From Gemmatimonadota bacterium (GTDB lineage: Bacteria; 4572-55; J002), in the NCBI GenBank assembly GCA_003697105.1, contig RFFQ01000065.1, forward strand, positions 1-10,899: 10,899 nucleotides of DNA, in the 5' to 3' direction. The notes under the pieces were generated by a model. That model did not search any database. It had not been told where the DNA came from and saw nothing but the letters and a program-made list of their open reading frames with translations. Below are positions 2,488 through 10,899 of this stretch, piece after piece (within the stretch, counting starts at the first letter, position 1; each line of letters begins with the position of its first letter). Position numbers and translations under genes: made by a program.

Positions 2488-3351
2488 CTATTTAACGACC
2501 GCTTTCGCCAGTAGAATCAGCATCCGCCCGCTAATCGCAAAGTAAACCAACCCGTCCAGCAATCGATTTTGACCCGCTAAAAATTTATTATAATAGATAA
2601 TCATCGCCTGATGAAAGACAAATGTCATGTAGATGGGTCGTCGCCGGCTACTGCGGCGGTAGTAGTGTGTACAGGTTGCCCCGGCTTCGTAATAAATTCG
2701 CCAACCCGCTTCGCCGATACGCCGGCTCCAGTCTAAATCTTCACCGTACATAAAATAGGCTTCATCCCAGCCGCCCACCTGATCGATGACCTCGCGCCGG
2801 ACTAGGAAAAACGCACCGGAAAGGGCTTCCACCTCCCCAGAGTGATCCGGGGCAAGGTAGGTGAGATTATACTTACCCAATCTGGGATGCGTGGGAAAAA
2901 GACGGGCTAAACCGGTCAATTTGGCGAACGATGCCAGCGGATCGGGCAATCCACGGCGGGAGGTATAAATAAAAGTGCCGTCGGGGGCATTCATTCGGCA
3001 TCCGGCGGCGCCAATATCGGGGTGGTGCTCCATCAACTGGAGCATTGTTTGTAGGGTGTCCGGCGCCACCACATTATCCGGGTTCAAAAAAAGAAGGTAA
3101 CGCCCCGAACTGACCGCAATACCCTGATTGCACGCATGAGCAAACCCCCAGTTTTTATCATTTTCAAGGCAGATCACTTGCGGAAATTCAGTCCGAACCA
3201 TCGTCATGGAATCATCGACTGAATCATTATCTACCACAATTACTTCCATTGAAAAATCACCACGGGAGGCAAACACGGCTTGCAACGCCAATCGCAAGAA
3301 ATTCTTGACATTGTAATTGACGATGATAATCGATAAGTCAACGGGAGGCAC
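2488..3351 (-). CDS. GT2 family glycosyltransferase, rhamnosyltransferase-type
   Basis: About 287 residues from GTG at 3351; a TTG at 3366 would add five residues (MRKFT) but has no ribosome binding site at a useful distance. It is a GT-A fold inverting enzyme that moves a sugar from a nucleotide donor to a growing lipid-linked glycan on the cytoplasmic face. The start DLSIIIVNYNV is the classic GT2 first strand. Further marks are VDND (40-43), LNPDN with the metal-binding acid (about 89-93), SGAFFLVRR (178-186) and GEDLDW with the likely catalytic acid (203-208), followed by a conserved-type His (CTHYYRR). The pattern NPDN / SGAFFLVRR / GEDLDW is that of WbbL-like rhamnosyltransferases, but donor identity cannot be read from sequence. 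A C-terminal hydrophobic stretch could touch the membrane. It overlaps the end of the dehydrogenase gene by 14 bases (29 with the TTG start) and is the last gene of the packed cluster. Confidence 0.9.
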   Translation of the reverse strand: MPPVDLSIIIVNYNVKNFLRLALQAVFASRGDFSMEVIVVDNDSVDDSMTMVRTEFPQVICLENDKNWGFAHACNQGIAVSSGRYLLFLNPDNVVAPDTLQTMLQLMEHHPDIGAAGCRMNAPDGTFIYTSRRGLPDPLASFAKLTGLARLFPTHPRLGKYNLTYLAPDHSGEVEALSGAFFLVRREVIDQVGGWDEAYFMYGEDLDWSRRIGEAGWRIYYEAGATCTHYYRRSSRRRPIYMTFVFHQAMIIYYNKFLAGQNRLLDGLVYFAISGRMLILLAKAVVK

Positions 3352-4336
3352 GGTAAATTTTCTCAATAATTTCGACGGTTTTTAGTCCTTCAATCCCGGT
3401 TGTAGCGATTTGCTCCCGCCCCAGAATGGTTTCCACCACATTGGCGATCACTTTATCATGATTGGACATCGAACCGTGATAAAAACCGTAGTCATTGGCG
3501 GGTGAGGATTGGGGTACGTCCTGAATAACAAAATCTTGAATATTCTGATATTCCAACACATTCAGATATTGTCCACCAATTTTAACGGTTCCTTTTTCCG
3601 CAAAAATGGTGATGGAACCTTCCATATTTTTTTGATGGGCGCATATAGTATAAGTGATCGTCCCGATAGCGCCGCTTTTAAACTCCAGCAACGCTCCGCC
3701 ACAATCCTCAAAATCAATATAATCGTGGGCAACATTCCGGCGAATTGCCTGTACGGTAGTAACATCACCAATCAGCCAATAGAGCAGATCAATAAAATGA
3801 CTAAATTGCGTGAATAGCGTACCGCCATCTTGCTCCAACCGTCCTTTCCAACTGGAATGTTGGTAGTATGCCTTGTTTCGATTCCAATAGCAATTTACGG
3901 CAACCTGATAAATGTTGCCGAACCGTCCGGTCTCAATTGCCTGTTTTACAGCAACAACCGGCGGATTATAGCGATTTTGCTTCACCACAAAGAGCATTTT
4001 CTGCATTTTTTCGGCGGCATGGAGCATATCCAAACAATCCGAAGAACGCAATGCCATTGGTTTTTCGCACAGCACATGGTGTCCGGCATTCAAAGCGCGA
4101 ATGGAAAGGGGTGCATGGGTGTTATTGGGGGTACAAATCGTGATCACATCAACTGTCGGATGCTTCTCCAGCAGGTCTGAAAGATGGCGATACGCCGGGA
4201 CATCAAAGCCCTCTGCTCGTGCCTCTACCACATCACAAGTAGCGACTAATTCTGCTTGCGGATGCGCTTTAATGTGCCGGATATGGCGTTGCCCAATAGC
4301 ACCACAGCCGACAACGGCAAATGAAATCGATTTCAA
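3338..4336 (-). CDS. Gfo/Idh/MocA family NAD(P)-dependent oxidoreductase, likely sugar-nucleotide dehydrogenase
   Basis: About 332 residues from TTG at 4336, chosen because GAGGTG lies six bases upstream and translation then begins MKSISFAVVGCGAIGQRH. A GTG at 4348 gives four more residues and would overlap the YfhO stop codon. Residues 10-15 are the dinucleotide-binding GCGAIG, 91-93 the family EKP with its catalytic-type Lys, and 174-184 (LFTQFSHFIDL) carry the His/Asp pair at 180 and 183. The Tyr-Tyr...SWKG...GGTLFTQ.SH.IDLL arrangement resembles WlbA/WbpB, which oxidise UDP-N-acetylglucosaminuronic acid at C3 in making amino-sugar uronates. That assignment is moderate. No matching aminotransferase (WlbC/WbpE type) or acetyltransferase lies in the window. 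The location between a YfhO-like protein and a glycosyltransferase supports a role in making or modifying a sugar donor. Length is normal for the family. Confidence 0.88.
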   Translation of the reverse strand: MKSISFAVVGCGAIGQRHIRHIKAHPQAELVATCDVVEARAEGFDVPAYRHLSDLLEKHPTVDVITICTPNNTHAPLSIRALNAGHHVLCEKPMALRSSDCLDMLHAAEKMQKMLFVVKQNRYNPPVVAVKQAIETGRFGNIYQVAVNCYWNRNKAYYQHSSWKGRLEQDGGTLFTQFSHFIDLLYWLIGDVTTVQAIRRNVAHDYIDFEDCGGALLEFKSGAIGTITYTICAHQKNMEGSITIFAEKGTVKIGGQYLNVLEYQNIQDFVIQDVPQSSPANDYGFYHGSMSNHDKVIANVVETILGREQIATTGIEGLKTVEIIEKIYRASR

Positions 4337-4340
4337 CAGA

Positions 4341-4346
4341 CACCTC
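4341..4346 (-). promoter_or_regulatory. Ribosome binding site that decides the dehydrogenase start
   Basis: GAGGTG on the minus strand overlaps the YfhO stop codon (TGA at 4347-4345) and lies four to six bases before TTG at 4336. It favours that TTG over the GTG at 4348, which has no such site, and couples the two genes. Confidence 0.5.
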
Positions 4347-6888
4347 ACAGTTGGCGGCGCTTTTTGATGCCAAATTCCCAGCCAAACACGAGCAAGATAA
4401 ACAACAACGCCACGCTCCCGGAGATCACCCCAGCCCGGAAAGGTGGGTCTTGGAATTTAAATTCAATGGTGTGTTCACCCGCGGGAACCCGGATAGAACG
4501 CAAGGCATAATTGGTTTTGTAAATATCAACTTTTTCACCGTTAATATAGGCGTGCCAGCCGGGGGGATAATTGACTTCGCTCAGAACCAGCAAACATTCC
4601 TGAGCAATATTGGCATGAAGTGTAATCTGATGAATATCAAAATCGGTGACCTGAACCGTACTCCCCGTTTTATCACCAAACGAAAAATAGCCAAGTGAAT
4701 CTGCCTCGCCTAAATTTAAATCATACGTGGATTCCAATACGGCGGCTTGAGCTGGATTAAATGTTGGGCTTTTCAGTTCATCAAATATGGCTTTGGGGTC
4801 TGTCAGCACTTTTACCCGATCCACCAGATATGCCCGCGGCAAATTTTTGAGATTTTGATAGACGATCATCCCATTACTTTGAAACACTTGCCGAAAATCC
4901 GGGTGGGGAAACTGTCCCGAAACCACCAGATATTTGCCATTGAACATCGCCATCGCAGTGGATAACCGCTCAACATTGAGCTGTCCATTGGGGAACAGGA
5001 CGTAATCAAACATATCTTGTATGACCCGTAACTTGGCGGCGTGGTATCCCCCCATCGACTCAATCAGGTAATATGCCCAAATATTATTTTGAAAGAGGTC
5101 ACCGACACCTTGGACATTTCCCAAGCTGAGTATTCGGAATTTCCCGGTATCTTGCTTGAGAAAATCCGCTACTGGGTCGGTGATGGCAAGCTGGCTGTTA
5201 ACCACCGTGGGTTCTGCTTTGGCAACGGTGAATCGCCGGTTGAGAAGCCACAAATCGAGAGTCAACACTACCAGAACCGCGATCACAAATGTCCGCCGGT
5301 TCAAGCGACGTTGGATGGCTAAGATCAGCAAGGCACAACTGACAACCATGAAAAAGGTCATCCGGTACACATCTTTTTTCGCCATATCAAACCGCTGTGC
5401 CGCTAAATAGTTGATCGTGGCTTCATCGTATGTCGCCCGGTCCCGGTCACGGGTGAACATGCCATCTTGGCGCAGGGATTGGTACAACCCGTTACCACCA
5501 ACGGCAAAAATCAGACTGATTAAAATGGAAACCGCCGCAATGGTTGCGAGTCCTTTCCACAAAAATTGGAATTTCGGTTCGAGCTTCTTTTTAACCGTTT
5601 CAAATTGATCGAGTAATACTTGTAAACCAAATCCGGCGAGGACAGCTACGGCAAATTCCAGCAGAACCAACACCATTGCCGGCACCCGAAACTTGTTAAA
5701 ATACGGAAGATGATTCAGTAAAAATTCACTGAGGAGGGGAAAATGCCGTCCAAAACTAACCAGTAAGGAGACGATACCGAGAATCAGCATAAAAACGGTA
5801 ATGCGATTCCGGCGAAACAAGAGCGCAATCGCGGAAAGCAATAAGGGTAAAAGCCCCATATAGAGCGAATTTTGGGTAAACGGCATCTGCCCCCAATAGA
5901 AACCGCCCTGCTCACCCACCCCATAAAATGCTGGGACAAAAAAGGTGATAATTTCCTCGGGAGGGAAAGACCAACTGGTGGCGTAATCATGAGAAAGACC
6001 GGTTTTCGGCGCGGTTGTATCCAACGCGGGTGGAACACCCCGGATGGAATAGTGGCTGTATTCCTGAACCGGTCCAAAATAAATATACGAGAGCGCAAAA
6101 CCGATCAACACAGCAATGGCACACAATCCGCCCCCTAAAACAACTTTGAAATTACGCTTCGCTAATTCGATGATAACCCAGTAAAGCGTGAACGCACCGA
6201 GCATCAGCAGAGTATAATAGGCAATTTGGGGGTGCTGGGCAAGAAGTTGCAACCCAATCGTCAAACCTGCCAGGGCCAAATAAAAAAGCGACGGTGATTC
6301 CAATAGACGTAAAATAGCGTAAAACGTCCACGGGATGTACATGATCGTCCATAGCTTCCCGCCGTGTGCAATGGGGATTAAGCCGACAAAATGGGGCATT
6401 AGCATAAACGTGATGGCGCCCAGCAAAGAAGCACTTCGTGCCAATTTTAAGTGACGCAGCAACAGATAAAGCCCGAGAGCACCAAAAATGAAATGGAGAA
6501 GATGCGGATGAAGTACACGTCCGGTACTGAATGGAAGTTTGGCGATAATTGTACGGTGAAATATATCGACTGGATAAACAATGGAATGGATCATACTCCC
6601 AAAACTTGGCATTCCCGAAAATATGTAAGGTGTCCATTGTGGATAGTAACCTTTTGAGACCGCTTCTTTTGTAAAATGCGCCGCATATGTCCCGGCAGAG
6701 GCATCGGCGGCATTAAACGTTTTGCCTAAAAAGGTATACTCAAAAAATTGGCTATAAATTAGCACCGCAAAAATCAGTAAAACGATGAGGTTAAAGTAGC
6801 GATTCACGTACGTTGGTATTGAGGAGGAACCACTCGCGGAACCGGATGGTGTTCGGCTTCTTTTTGTTTGTTTTTTCTTTTTTCCCAT
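4345..6888 (-). CDS. YfhO-family polytopic membrane protein (GT-C-like)
   Basis: An 847-residue integral membrane protein. The N-terminus is a cytoplasmic Lys/Arg/Ser tail (MGKKKKQTKRSRT), followed by a first membrane segment at about 33-50. An outside loop then carries N59AAD62 and PQWTPYIFSGMP (83-94). This matches the YfhO pattern, in which an acidic residue in the first outer loop and a P.W.PY..GMP motif recur. Later marks are QHPQIAYY (218-225), SWSFPPEE (306-312) and KFRVPAM (399-405). Around a dozen hydrophobic segments follow by eye. A large soluble outer region runs from about residue 560 to 815 and ends in a beta-type motif PPGWHAYINGEKV; a last membrane helix and a basic tail close the protein. 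In Firmicutes, YfhO-type proteins are proposed GT-C transferases that add sugars from undecaprenyl phosphate to teichoic acids. The acceptor here is unknown. No GtcA-type flippase is present in the window. It ends 8 bases before the dehydrogenase start. Confidence 0.9.
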   Translation of the reverse strand: MGKKKKQTKRSRTPSGSASGSSSIPTYVNRYFNLIVLLIFAVLIYSQFFEYTFLGKTFNAADASAGTYAAHFTKEAVSKGYYPQWTPYIFSGMPSFGSMIHSIVYPVDIFHRTIIAKLPFSTGRVLHPHLLHFIFGALGLYLLLRHLKLARSASLLGAITFMLMPHFVGLIPIAHGGKLWTIMYIPWTFYAILRLLESPSLFYLALAGLTIGLQLLAQHPQIAYYTLLMLGAFTLYWVIIELAKRNFKVVLGGGLCAIAVLIGFALSYIYFGPVQEYSHYSIRGVPPALDTTAPKTGLSHDYATSWSFPPEEIITFFVPAFYGVGEQGGFYWGQMPFTQNSLYMGLLPLLLSAIALLFRRNRITVFMLILGIVSLLVSFGRHFPLLSEFLLNHLPYFNKFRVPAMVLVLLEFAVAVLAGFGLQVLLDQFETVKKKLEPKFQFLWKGLATIAAVSILISLIFAVGGNGLYQSLRQDGMFTRDRDRATYDEATINYLAAQRFDMAKKDVYRMTFFMVVSCALLILAIQRRLNRRTFVIAVLVVLTLDLWLLNRRFTVAKAEPTVVNSQLAITDPVADFLKQDTGKFRILSLGNVQGVGDLFQNNIWAYYLIESMGGYHAAKLRVIQDMFDYVLFPNGQLNVERLSTAMAMFNGKYLVVSGQFPHPDFRQVFQSNGMIVYQNLKNLPRAYLVDRVKVLTDPKAIFDELKSPTFNPAQAAVLESTYDLNLGEADSLGYFSFGDKTGSTVQVTDFDIHQITLHANIAQECLLVLSEVNYPPGWHAYINGEKVDIYKTNYALRSIRVPAGEHTIEFKFQDPPFRAGVISGSVALLFILLVFGWEFGIKKRRQL

Positions 6889-6926: not shown

Positions 6927-7877
6927 TCAAGGGTGAATTAACTGTTTTGCATTTTGGTGGTAGATACGATCATAAACGTTCGCCGGTAAATCCAGTGAAT
7001 CCAAAAACGATTTTAATCCAAGTTGATAATTATCCGTGCCATATAACAATTTGGTCGCATATCGGATTAAAAATGTTCGCGCAAACGTCGGATCGCGGGT
7101 TAGGGCATAATACCCACTCCCTCCCGATAAATCGGCATAAAGATTATCATAGGTTGTTAATAGATAGCAAATAATGCCCTCTTGATCAATATGTCCCGTT
7201 GGATATTGGACATCCTTTGGCACGTCCTTACTGATATTTTTCCAAAAAAAAGGTCCGTGCCCGATGAATTTTATATCCGGGTACTGTTGTAATGCCCGTT
7301 CCAAGGTCTCAAAATCCATCAAATAGCCAGAAAAGTGATACTGTAATTCTTTATATTTTTTCCGGAGTACCGGGATGCCGTTACAGAGCCATCGTGCTGT
7401 TTTTGCCGGAATCCCTCCTAACTTGTGAGTGCGGAAACATTTGGCTAACACCTGATCAAAACGGTGTTCTGCCTGAAACGAAAATCCCTGATGACCTTCC
7501 TCCATGTGAAAAATCAAGGGTAATTTTAATTGATGGATACATTCCAGCAGGGGCTGAAGTTGCGGGGAATCCCAACGGACATTTGCTTTGAGTTCGCCAC
7601 AGCCTCGGATCCCTTTGTGATAGTACTCCTGAAATCGTTCCACCGCATCAGGACGGTTAGGGTCTGGGGCGTAAAAAGGAACAATGCGATCCGGGTATTT
7701 TTGATACGCTTCTAACACCGGTTCAACCGGAAAAGGATGATAATTCCATTTAATGTGATTTCCCACTTCTTCCCACGTGAGGAGCCAACATTTATCCAGA
7801 TGATAGGTATCGAGATACTCAATAAGGGTTTCTGCTGTAATGCCGTTTAAGCCTAAATGCAGATGGGAATCGATCAT
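6927..7877 (-). CDS. Amidohydrolase-family metal-dependent hydrolase
   Basis: 316 residues from ATG at 7877, three bases after the upstream stop codon; there is no Shine-Dalgarno site, so translational coupling is likely. The TIM-barrel amidohydrolase (Amidohydro_2/ACMSD-like) layout is complete. The N-terminal HxH metal pair is SHLH (H5, H7), an acidic GCGELK gives E95, FHMEE gives H124, FIGHGPFF gives H207 and YGTDN gives D282. These are the expected metal and catalytic positions, so the enzyme is probably active, with one metal. Family members hydrolyse or decarboxylate small carboxylates, lactones and amides. Which of these applies cannot be read. Its place between a glycosyltransferase and a YfhO-like protein suggests work on a sugar or a precursor, for example removal of an acyl group. 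No signal peptide is seen, so it is cytoplasmic. The next gene follows after 38 bases. Confidence 0.88.
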   Translation of the reverse strand: MIDSHLHLGLNGITAETLIEYLDTYHLDKCWLLTWEEVGNHIKWNYHPFPVEPVLEAYQKYPDRIVPFYAPDPNRPDAVERFQEYYHKGIRGCGELKANVRWDSPQLQPLLECIHQLKLPLIFHMEEGHQGFSFQAEHRFDQVLAKCFRTHKLGGIPAKTARWLCNGIPVLRKKYKELQYHFSGYLMDFETLERALQQYPDIKFIGHGPFFWKNISKDVPKDVQYPTGHIDQEGIICYLLTTYDNLYADLSGGSGYYALTRDPTFARTFLIRYATKLLYGTDNYQLGLKSFLDSLDLPANVYDRIYHQNAKQLIHP

Positions 7878-7880
7878 AGT

Positions 7881-8870
7881 TTATTGAATTAAGTGTTCCT
7901 CAAGGGCTTGCTGCTTCATGCCTTGACATTTATAAAAATGGATAATAGAACGATACCACAAAAATAGCAAGGGTCGAGGAAATAACCGTTCTGCCAACGG
8001 CAAACTGGTTCTGAAAACCGAATGAATGATTGGATTCTGGATTCCATAACGCGAGATCAGATTACCAATGCGGCGCTGAAATGATGGTTTGGCATCGGGT
8101 AAAGGCATCACCCGATCAATTTGTAAATCTTCTGCTAATTCCGGTAATTTTAGATAACACAATACCGCAGATTTTCCAGCAGAAATCGTGCGCTCACAAT
8201 ATCGTTTCAAGGTTGGGTTATAATAATGATAGGATTGGGCTTGAGGGCTGTAGTAAAAGCGGGTTTTTAATTCGCGGTATAGCCGAAATCCAATTGCTAA
8301 ATCTTCATTTCCGTAAATTCCTTTACCAAAACTTTCATCATCAAACCCTCCAACCTTCCAAAACGACTCTCGACTCACGGAAATATTCCCTCCTTGGAAA
8401 TACCAGTACGGTTTTGCCGTATCAATCCGACCAGCTTTCTTCGGAAAAATTTGCTGATTGCCCCCATGATCGATAAAATCAATAAAACGTCCGGTTGCAT
8501 AATGTGCCGGAATCTGCTTATGCCCTAAAACCACACAATTTGTATCGGATTGGTGATAGTACCAATGTCCAGAAACAAGGCTCGGTGAGACCTCCATATC
8601 ATCATCTAAAAAGAGCAATGCCTGACCAGAAGCTTCTCTGGCACCCGCATTTCGGGAATACGGATACCCCCGATTTTCGTGACGTTCATAGATGAATCGG
8701 CATGGCATTTCGACCGAATTGAGATAATCGTTGGTATCGGTATCCGAACCGTCATCGGAGACAATGACTTCATACCGGTCAGCCGGAAAATCTTGGTGAG
8801 ATAAAGATTCCAAACACAGTTTCAGTATATCTAACCGGTTATAAGTAGTAATGATAACCGAAACATCCAT
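7881..8870 (-). CDS. GT2 family glycosyltransferase
   Basis: 329 residues from ATG at 8870, with GGGAG seven bases upstream as a good ribosome binding site. GT-A fold inverting transferase. MDVSVIITTYNR is the first strand and DDGSD (39-43) binds the nucleotide. FLDDDME (87-93) holds the DxD-type metal-binding acids, and YFQGGNISVSRE (157-168) is an acceptor-side segment. GNEDLAIGFRL (187-197) holds the likely catalytic acid, followed by SYHYYNP, where a His commonly follows in this family. The C-terminal 100 residues are basic and end in aromatic-rich helices (LFLWYRSIIHFY), which suggests membrane association. The donor and linkage cannot be deduced. It starts four bases after the stop codon of the sialyltransferase-like gene and ends three bases before the amidohydrolase start, so the three are surely co-translated. 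Confidence 0.92.
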   Translation of the reverse strand: MDVSVIITTYNRLDILKLCLESLSHQDFPADRYEVIVSDDGSDTDTNDYLNSVEMPCRFIYERHENRGYPYSRNAGAREASGQALLFLDDDMEVSPSLVSGHWYYHQSDTNCVVLGHKQIPAHYATGRFIDFIDHGGNQQIFPKKAGRIDTAKPYWYFQGGNISVSRESFWKVGGFDDESFGKGIYGNEDLAIGFRLYRELKTRFYYSPQAQSYHYYNPTLKRYCERTISAGKSAVLCYLKLPELAEDLQIDRVMPLPDAKPSFQRRIGNLISRYGIQNPIIHSVFRTSLPLAERLFPRPLLFLWYRSIIHFYKCQGMKQQALEEHLIQ

Positions 8871-8874
8871 AATG

Positions 8875-9966
8875 TTACTCCCAAAACAGAACGGTTTCCG
8901 AAAATAATTCTTCCACGATAGGGATTATGCCCTGGTCGTGCGTCAAGGCTTCCGGAGCCATCTTAATAGCAGAGATGACTTGGGTTTGCGGTGAAAATAA
9001 CGACGCATACAACATCGTTGAGGAGAAAAGGGTGATCACATAATCAATTGATAACGCTTTTAAGAGAATTTCCACAGGTAGCCCCTTCAATTGTGAAATC
9101 AGTTTTATGGGGAATCCGGCGATATCATAGAAATATGTGTACTTTTCCGATGATTCCCGAGGGTGCGGTTTTAGGAAGAGGGTATCCACATGCAGTTCGT
9201 GTTGAATCCGTTGGACAATATTGGCGTAAATTGCTAACTCACGCTGTTCGGTAAGACCTCGATCCGCCGATAAGGGTTGGGTGAGCAGCAGCGCGGTTTT
9301 TCCGTCCACGGTCGGCAATGCTTCAAGGTGATCGATCCAAGTAGTAAGCTTAGTTGCTATTTTTTTTTGGATTAAGTTCCCCAGATCATGCACCGGCTTA
9401 TTGGGAAAAAAAGCCCACTTGCGAAATTTATCGGGATATACAACGTAACTGCTATCATTGATCTTATTTTTTCCTAACACATAATGGTAGCATGCTAGGC
9501 CATAATGAAACACCAGTTTATCAGTTAAAAAGCGCCCAATAACTTTATGGTAAGGTTCTTTTTTTATCCGTTGGATATAGGTACCTAACCCTTCTTCGAT
9601 AAAATAGGTTTTATCGGGTTCAATCCAGCGGTGAATGATTTGGTTATTTAACTGAGTGTCATTCGACCAGAATACAATCCGTTCGGTATCGGTATTTCGG
9701 CGTGTATAGGGGAAATTCTCTTTTAACTTTCTGGCATCACGAAGCCAATTCCAGTTTAAATATTTATTTCGTGGAAAAAGGATTTCTTCATGAATTTCAT
9801 CCCAATCGGATGTCGCAAATAGGGCTGGGTGGATATTTTTTTGGGGTCCCGTCAGAATGAGAATACAGGGTACCGACCGGCCGATGTCTGCTTTCCATTG
9901 ATCCGCAATCAGACTGGAAAAGATGATGTGCAAAGGTGTTGAGGCGATAAAAAAAAGTTCTGTCAT
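8875..9966 (-). CDS. Putative sialyltransferase (GT52/polysialyltransferase-like)
   Basis: 363 residues from ATG at 9966. GGAG lies ten bases upstream, overlapping the end of the flippase gene. The start FFIASTPLHIIFSSLIADQ is the typical first strand and helix of the GT-B bacterial sialyltransferases, which bind CMP-sialic acid. All three signature motifs are present in order. The D/E-D/E-G motif, with the catalytic base, is FIEEGLGTY with EEG at 124-126. The HP motif, which contacts CMP, is LFLKPHPRE with HP at 267-268. The SS/T motif is LFSSTMLYAS with SST at 315-317. Length and order fit GT52 and the related alpha-2,8-polysialyltransferases. The donor might instead be another CMP-nonulosonate such as legionaminic or pseudaminic acid. 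No CMP-sugar synthesis gene is visible here, so the donor pathway must lie elsewhere if the call holds. Confidence 0.82.
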   Translation of the reverse strand: MTELFFIASTPLHIIFSSLIADQWKADIGRSVPCILILTGPQKNIHPALFATSDWDEIHEEILFPRNKYLNWNWLRDARKLKENFPYTRRNTDTERIVFWSNDTQLNNQIIHRWIEPDKTYFIEEGLGTYIQRIKKEPYHKVIGRFLTDKLVFHYGLACYHYVLGKNKINDSSYVVYPDKFRKWAFFPNKPVHDLGNLIQKKIATKLTTWIDHLEALPTVDGKTALLLTQPLSADRGLTEQRELAIYANIVQRIQHELHVDTLFLKPHPRESSEKYTYFYDIAGFPIKLISQLKGLPVEILLKALSIDYVITLFSSTMLYASLFSPQTQVISAIKMAPEALTHDQGIIPIVEELFSETVLFWE

Positions 9967-9972
9967 TTCGCG

Positions 9973-10899
9973 TTATCTCCAGCGAACCCAAGTAGTAAAC
10001 GAGAACCGGTATTTCCATACCATTATCATGGAAAAAAGACCTAAAATGACAAGCTTAACGCTGTATTGCCATATCGGGGATTCCCATAAGGATGCTATTG
10101 GTAAGGTGACCCCATATACTAAAACGAGTATCAAAGTTGGTACGGCAAGCGTTAATAAAGATGTAGTATGCAACTGCAGAACATATTTACTGACCCCCCA
10201 ACCTCCCAGTGCCATAATTGCATATGAAATTACCGTGGTGTAAGCACTAGCTTCGTATCCAAACATCGGAATATAGATCGAATTTAAAAGGATATTGATG
10301 ATACCGGCACTAAGTGCAATTACAGAGGTCCAGATCGTTTTGTAGGCAAAACCTAAGTTTCGACCCCACACTTGCCACCAATATACAAAAATATGCCCAA
10401 ATACCACGATCGGAATCAGATGTAATGCGGTATGATAGGATGCCGCCGATATAATCTGTCCAATGAGTTCGCCAAATAACATTAAAAATAGCGCACAAAT
10501 TAAAACTAACCGCATCATTTTATCAACATCTAAATCCAGTTGGTGGTAAGATTTGGACTTCATGTATTCATAGTAATCGGGCGTCCATGCCGTTAGTAAT
10601 GCGGTCAGGAAGAGATTTAAGACAGTTCCGATATTGTAGGCAAAACTATATAATCCGGTTGCCGCAGAATCAATATAATTATTGATCATAATTCGGTCAA
10701 ACTGGGCTAAGATAATCCCACTCAGTTGATAGGGTACTAATGGTAATGAATATCTGAGAATATACCGGATATGGTGGCGGTTAAAGGCAACTGAAAAATA
10801 GGGTTTTACATAATAGACAATGGCACCACTTAGAATACCACCGATAATGATTTGCCCCCAAATTAGCCCTAGATACCGGTCTGTTTGTAACATCAAGAC
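9973..10899 (-). CDS. Wzx-type polysaccharide flippase, C-terminal part
   Basis: The frame is open to the right edge (VLMLQTDRYLG at the boundary), so the ATG at 10893 is internal and the N-terminal third is missing. The 308 residues seen compare with about 430-500 in full-length proteins. Wzx proteins of the MOP superfamily move lipid-linked oligosaccharide units from the inner to the outer face of the inner membrane. The recognisable core is SLPLVPYQLSG followed by AQFDRIMINNYID and GLYSFAYNIG, the usual start of the second half-bundle. The later FGYEASAYTTVISYA matches the GxxAxAxxT..S pattern. Roughly eight hydrophobic helices are visible and the C-terminus is basic (FTTWVRWR). It is upstream and six bases from the sialyltransferase-like gene, placing export first in the operon order seen here. 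Its specificity is unknown. Confidence 0.85.
   Translation of the reverse strand, partial: VLMLQTDRYLGLIWGQIIIGGILSGAIVYYVKPYFSVAFNRHHIRYILRYSLPLVPYQLSGIILAQFDRIMINNYIDSAATGLYSFAYNIGTVLNLFLTALLTAWTPDYYEYMKSKSYHQLDLDVDKMMRLVLICALFLMLFGELIGQIISAASYHTALHLIPIVVFGHIFVYWWQVWGRNLGFAYKTIWTSVIALSAGIINILLNSIYIPMFGYEASAYTTVISYAIMALGGWGVSKYVLQLHTTSLLTLAVPTLILVLVYGVTLPIASLWESPIWQYSVKLVILGLFSMIMVWKYRFSFTTWVRWR

Follow-up and report, generated by a model that had tools for sequence, protein, structure and literature searches.

A probable CMP-nonulosonate transferase of the GT38/GT52 type, encoded beside a Wzx flippase gene in a Gemmatimonadota bacterium

The DNA analyzed here (the window, 10,899 nt) corresponds to the complete contig C132 of a Gemmatimonadota genome (4.18 Mb in 199 contigs, 97% complete). 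One of its genes probably encodes a cytoplasmic, metal-independent, inverting GT-B CMP-nonulosonate transferase, with most likely a legionaminic-type donor and a lipid-linked glycan as acceptor, the product being flipped by the adjacent Wzx protein. The protein family, the motif set, the fold match, the synthesis genes in the same genome and the recurrent neighbourhood of the relatives were all obtained by computation. The transferase is a further member of a well-known enzyme family, not a new system, and behaves as the family predicts. The original prediction, a CMP-nonulosonate transferase of the GT52/polysialyltransferase type, is supported by the profiles, the fold and the synthesis genes of the genome.

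Family, motifs and fold of the transferase

The gene and its motifs are located in the window as follows.

8875-9966, minus strand: CMP-nonulosonate (sialyltransferase-type) glycosyltransferase, PF07388/GT52, 363 aa, assigned by Pfam matches over cut-off and by fold
9589-9597, minus strand: D/E-D/E-G motif, E124-E125-G126, equivalent to E152-E153-G of MhPST; E125 is the putative catalytic base
9154-9171, minus strand: KPHPRE, residues 266-271, containing the HP motif H268-P269, putatively stabilizing the CMP leaving group
9070-9072, minus strand: E299, putative ribose-binding glutamate, invariant in the alignment (compare E323 of MhPST)
9016-9027, minus strand: FSST, residues 314-317, S/T motif, putatively binding phosphate, with spacing as for S339-T340 of MhPST

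This reading frame is the sole PF07388 gene found by a profile search of the whole genome. The model of the bacterial alpha-2,8-polysialyltransferases, PF07388, gives 85.6 bits against a cut-off of 23.3 (E = 5.9e-24), the alignment covering residues 5-332 of the transferase and positions 2-314 of the 316 in the profile. The match to PF07922 (GT52, a family in which CAZy also lists an alpha-glucosyltransferase) is weaker but also over the cut-off (35.4 bits against 26.1, E = 9e-9), and no other Pfam family is matched at E <= 1. These profile matches are far beyond chance. The motifs EEG, KPHPRE and FSST, described earlier as having the right order and spacing, are confirmed by translation, and their spacing fits the GT38 enzyme MhPST. 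Taken alone, they are weak to moderate evidence, as among 20,000 shuffled versions of the protein with its composition kept, 13 show the same set in the same order and spacing.

In MhPST, whose structure has been solved, catalysis involves E153 of the D/E-D/E-G motif as the base and H291 of the HP motif, which stabilizes the departing CMP; the ribose is bound by E323 and the phosphate by S339-T340 (PMC5517516). The catalytic base and the HP histidine are separated by 143 residues in the window transferase (E125 to H268) and by 138 in MhPST (E153 to H291); the ribose-binding glutamate is at H+31 (E299) versus H+32 (E323), and the phosphate-binding S/T pair at H+47/48 (S315-S316) versus H+48/49 (S339-T340). 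In the alignment of 20 sequences (the transferase and 19 relatives, 17-24% identical to it), K266, H268, P269, P297 and E299 are invariant, and the acid in position 125 and G126 are at least 90% conserved, while the serine of the S/T motif is not strictly kept in the relatives from Lachnospiraceae. Judging by spacing and conservation, rather than by superposition of side chains, E125, H268, E299 and S315-S316 are likely equivalent to the catalytic residues of MhPST. By homology with this enzyme, E125 would deprotonate the acceptor hydroxyl, H268, aided by the S/T motif, would stabilize the CMP leaving group, and E299 would hold the ribose.

No solved structure was matched by sequence, either with phmmer of the protein or with hmmsearch of the 20-sequence alignment against PDB. 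A second profile reached a GT80 sialyltransferase weakly, below significance (E 0.26), the HP and SS columns being in register. As sequence alone does not reach solved structures, a comparison of folds was needed. The AF2 model, built from the 20-sequence alignment, is of moderate confidence (pLDDT 64, pTM 0.66), and its nucleotide-binding half, about residues 221-330, mostly has pLDDT of 70-90. The two top Foldseek matches in PDB are to the GT38 polysialyltransferase of M. haemolytica (5wc6 and 5wcn, E 5.4e-10 and 4.4e-9). The first 22 rows of VIA-align are all GT80 and GT38 sialyltransferases with Z from 14.7 to 12.7, while the first other proteins, UDP-GlcNAc 2-epimerases and plant UGTs, have Z of 11.5 and below. 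In this model-based comparison the margin of sialyltransferases over unrelated GT-B rows appears modest, about 1-3 Z units, and its direction agrees with the profiles. The fold check has thus produced no GT-B family that beats the sialyltransferases in Pfam, Foldseek or VIA-align. In particular, GT99 and GT107 (beta-Kdo transferases) are absent from the listed fold matches, and Pfam likewise gives none at E <= 1, though the GT99 model is perhaps not in Pfam.

Among the solved families, GT38/PF07388 resembles the transferase most closely, with the best profile, the best Foldseek match and four motifs at nearly the same spacing (VIA-align Z 12.8 over 282 residues), but the identity to the M. haemolytica enzyme over the structural alignment is about 14%. 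The likeness to GT52 (Neisseria Lst, Haemophilus LsgB) consists in the PF07922 match, which is weaker than that of PF07388. The GT80 enzymes (Pasteurella PmST1, Photobacterium) have the same GT-B architecture and the highest Z (14.7), but are 10-12% identical and yield no profile match.

Gene neighbourhood

The other genes assigned to the glycan locus are all in the same strand.

9973-10899, minus strand: Wzx-type flippase, C-terminal 308 aa, cut by the contig end, 6 bp upstream of the transferase; PF01943, 46.2 bits against a cut-off of 28.2
7881-8870, minus strand: GT2 glycosyltransferase, 329 aa, 4 bp downstream of the transferase; PF00535, 93.3 bits
6927-7877, minus strand: amidohydrolase-family protein, 316 aa, 3 bp downstream of the GT2 gene; PF04909, 38.3 bits
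4345-6888, minus strand: YfhO/PgfM-like large membrane protein, 847 aa; PF09586 over cut-off at the C terminus only, with a weak match to NF047589 (PgfM1)
3338-4348, minus strand: Gfo/Idh/MocA oxidoreductase, 336 aa; PF01408 and PF02894 over cut-off
2488-3366, minus strand: second GT2 glycosyltransferase, 292 aa; PF00535, 91.1 bits; the start codon is uncertain, the listed start overlapping the Gfo/Idh/MocA gene by 29 bp

The gaps of 6, 4 and 3 bp indicate that the genes for Wzx, the transferase, GT2 and the amidohydrolase form a single operon. The list of neighbours given in the original prediction (the Wzx fragment, two GT2 enzymes, the amidohydrolase and the YfhO-like protein) is correct, except that it had omitted the Gfo/Idh/MocA gene between the YfhO-like and the second GT2 genes. 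No polymerase (Wzy) is seen in the window. A search for the missing half of Wzx and for an overlap with another contig of the genome found none, and thus C132 could not be joined to the contigs with nonulosonate genes. The GT2 enzymes and the transferase would build an undecaprenyl-linked oligosaccharide in the cytoplasm, and the adjacent Wzx would then carry the finished glycan across the membrane.

This arrangement bears on whether the protein may be a true polysialyltransferase that polymerizes one nonulosonic acid into a homopolymer capsule, as could be suggested by the score of PF07388, higher than that of GT52 (85.6 versus 35.4 bits), and by the first rank of the M. haemolytica polysialyltransferase in Foldseek. 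However, the presence of Wzx and of two GT2 genes in the operon would rather fit a repeat unit of mixed sugars, and the operon differs from a Kps-type locus. Moreover, the first strand of the AF2 model begins at residue 2, so that no counterpart of the N-terminal membrane anchor of MhPST is seen, although GT38 enzymes perhaps do not all need one. GT52 is also matched by most relatives (18 of 20 match both this model and PF07388). A polysialyltransferase is thus very improbable, and transfer of a nonulosonate to a lipid-linked glycan is preferred.

The locus was earlier regarded as unexplained. The O-antigen locus of H. parainfluenzae T3T1 comprises, in this order, a flippase, a GT52 sialyltransferase, a polymerase and two glycosyltransferases, and its O-unit carries acetylated Neu5Ac (PMC3989065); in H. 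influenzae, a tetrasaccharide bearing sialic acid is added by hmg, a Wzy-type locus that includes siaA (PMC3928620). These loci share with the window a flippase gene and a sialyltransferase-family gene lying near glycosyltransferase genes, and a homologue from H. aegyptius (L045) is encoded in an hmg-like locus. Given these parallels to the order of flippase, sialyltransferase and glycosyltransferase genes, the locus is less without precedent than had been thought. Unlike the Haemophilus loci, the window has no nonulosonate genes or visible polymerase, and has the YfhO-like, amidohydrolase and Gfo/Idh genes instead. The latter, for which no parallel was found, are the unusual part of the locus.

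The 847-aa YfhO-like protein (4345-6888), which weakly resembles PgfM of streptococci, is a possible GT-C-type enzyme with the same glycan as its substrate. Further along the window, an ATP-grasp protein (848-2221) has a below-cut-off match to the biotin carboxylase family (154.5 of 684 bits) and is followed 2 bp later by a 137-aa reading frame; the two apparently form a unit separate from the glycan operon.

Nonulosonate supply in the genome

Contig C127 carries, together and in one direction, genes for LegC, a NeuD-type acetyltransferase, NeuC and NeuB, all scoring over curated cut-offs: the LegC aminotransferase (TIGR04181, 479 bits against 420), the NeuD/LegH-type acetyltransferase (202 against 160.8), the NeuC/LegG-type 2-epimerase (384.5 against 235.9), and the NeuB/LegI-type synthase (471 against 399.65). 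With the NeuC, NeuB and NeuD models, Neu and Leg subtypes cannot be told apart. The closest solved relatives of the C127 NeuC are hydrolysing UDP/GDP-diacetylbacillosamine 2-epimerases, that is, enzymes of the legionaminate route, which suits a legionaminic-type pathway. The model of the LegB 4,6-dehydratase (TIGR04180) is not matched over its cut-off in the genome, the best score being 167.6 bits against 475, and a WbpM/PglF-type dehydratase on C187 might substitute for LegB, as SpsM does in B. subtilis. On C127, 179 bp precede LegC before the contig ends. The ends of C127, C128 and C129 have a stretch of roughly 180 bases in common, a repeat just upstream of LegC at which the assembly broke.

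Other genes point to a possible second nonulosonate. On C126, a second NeuB, lacking the SAF domain, directly follows a CMP-sugar synthetase, and on C186 a CMP-sugar synthetase is fused to a HAD phosphatase domain of the KdsC/YrbI type (similar to Kdn-9-phosphatase). The best PDB matches of both synthetases are CMP-NeuAc synthetases, not KdsB, and their scores with the PseF model, 142 and 160 bits, are under its cut-off of 205.7. KdsB, which makes CMP-Kdo, is encoded on a separate contig, C7 (TIGR00466, 262 bits against 155.2). Hence the genome very probably makes at least one CMP-nonulosonate, most likely of the legionaminic type, perhaps two, as well as CMP-Kdo. Two further matches were not counted: a third NeuB match, on C9, is by translation a DAHP (3-deoxy-7-phosphoheptulonate) synthase-like reading frame, and a CTP_transf_3 match on C14 looks GlmU-like.

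The whole-genome search for synthesis and CMP-activation genes has therefore found two NeuB, NeuC, LegC, a NeuD-type acetyltransferase and two CMP-sugar synthetases other than KdsB. Surface decoration with a sialic, legionaminic or pseudaminic acid, suggested earlier, gains from the presence of synthesis genes, but the exact sugar is not settled by them, and CMP-Kdo is available too. A legionaminic-type donor is favoured: LegC, NeuD, NeuC and NeuB of C127 would synthesize the sugar, and either of the two CMP-sugar synthetases other than KdsB would convert it to its CMP form. A point against this is that the transferase lies on a different contig from every nonulosonate gene found.

Both contigs with the synthetases carry further glycan genes. 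Downstream of the NeuB and CMP-synthetase genes of C126 (5349-6767 and neighbours) there are a glycosyltransferase weakly similar to BFO_1060 (54.6 bits against a cut-off of 200), an FkbM methyltransferase and sulfotransferase-like reading frames, which suggests that this nonulosonate enters a glycan of its own, perhaps with sulfate or methyl groups. The synthetase/HAD fusion of C186 lies near a 324-aa TagB-like glycosyltransferase with the motifs QEG, KLHP and QYST (1073-2293 and 4093-5067). The TagB-like candidate, like the BFO_1060-like one, is far below its model cut-off. As C126 and C186 have candidate transferases of their own, the window transferase need not serve all nonulosonates.

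Relatives and the choice of donor

A profile-based scan of named genomes yielded 23 relatives, 10 of them with NeuB within about 8 kb and 14 with NeuB or a CMP-sugar synthetase; in a set of other contigs of the window genome, NeuB was not matched, and the hits obtained were cross-hits to KdsB, to general aminotransferases and to an epimerase. In two genomes (G227 and G256) a PF07388-family gene lies beside LegC, NeuB, NeuC and a CMP-synthetase, LegC and NeuB being 50-55% identical to those of the window genome. On the same contig as the G227 locus, from bacterium STD1_102 (L055), the gene order is NeuD, NeuB, NeuC, nucleotidyltransferase, CMP-synthetase, radical SAM, Wzx, transferase and Wzy, the pairing of Wzx with the transferase being common to this locus and the window.

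The association with NeuB was also considered in a sample of 386 genomes spread over the domain, 13 of which have PF07388 over the cut-off. NeuB over the cut-off is found in 6 of these 13 and in 19 of the 373 others (Fisher p = 5e-5; 3.6e-4 without the window's own genome). In six of the 13, any match to NeuB is at about 1e-8 or worse, and thus the PF07388 family may also use other donors or include stray hits. The sole other genome of the same phylum among the 386 (G001) lacks both PF07388 and NeuB. A single-protein scan of genome contigs produced 37 pattern matches, none of which was confirmed; no relative was found in viral contigs, and tblastn against plasmids gave two weak matches. In the tree of 26 relatives the transferase is placed beside L032 and L035 with support of 91/82, but all these branches are long and may be joined by long-branch attraction, hence no inference is drawn.

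Family membership does not fix the donor: for the GT52 enzyme Lst of Neisseria, CMP-Leg5Ac7Ac is about as good a donor as CMP-Neu5Ac (PMC4668040), and in N. gonorrhoeae it can transfer Kdo (PMC8092323). CMP-Kdo as the donor, with Kdo added to a surface glycan or LPS, is consistent with this activity of Lst, with KdsB in the genome and with the HP motif, which is common to beta-Kdo transferases (PMC5517516). This seems unlikely, since Pfam gives only the polysialyltransferase and GT52 models, the relatives recurrently adjoin NeuB and CMP-NeuAc-type synthetases, and KdsB lies apart on C7, with no Kdo gene seen in the window.

A less remote alternative, which we consider possible though rather doubtful, is the second nonulosonate of the genome, Kdn-like and made via a 9-phosphate by the C126 NeuB and the C186 synthetase/phosphatase fusion. 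The absence of the SAF domain in this NeuB and the KdsC/Kdn-9-phosphatase-like HAD domain of the fusion agree with such a donor, and three relatives (L046, L052, L060) adjoin NeuB, HAD and CMP-synthetase genes. It is opposed by the candidate transferases that C126 and C186 possess themselves, and by the recurrence of the LegC-type neighbourhood beside PF07388-family genes in G227 and G256. The legionaminic-type donor, probably supplied by the C127 pathway, is thus preferred. Tentatively, the protein might be a GT38/GT52-type enzyme dedicated to CMP-legionaminate, a role with few known representatives in bacteria. The glycan that it helps to build would be of an unusual kind, exported by Wzx and altered further by the YfhO-like, amidohydrolase and Gfo/Idh products of the same operon.

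Findings of nonulosonic acids beyond pathogens and animal hosts are growing in number (PMC8053191). In 2020 no transferase attaching legionaminic-type sugars to cell surfaces had been reported, and B. subtilis, whose sps pathway resembles the one considered here in its legionaminic-type synthesis, has no GT38, GT42, GT52 or GT80 enzyme, its Leg transferase not having been identified (PMC7439481); one putative legionaminic-type transferase followed in 2021 (PMC9298399). The GT38/GT52 branch that recurs beside LegC-type pathways provides a concrete, testable set of candidates for these little-known transferases, and the window extends sialyltransferase-type enzymes to a poorly sampled phylum, represented by two of the genomes examined.

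Two relatives have unusual reading frames. In the hmg-like locus of Haemophilus aegyptius NCTC8502 (L045), the SiaA-like frame of 183 aa (7818-8369) and the flippase frame of 192 aa (4433-5011) look truncated compared with relatives. In a Lachnospiraceae MAG (L049, 5931-8516), the relative lies inside an 862-aa reading frame and is possibly fused to another domain.
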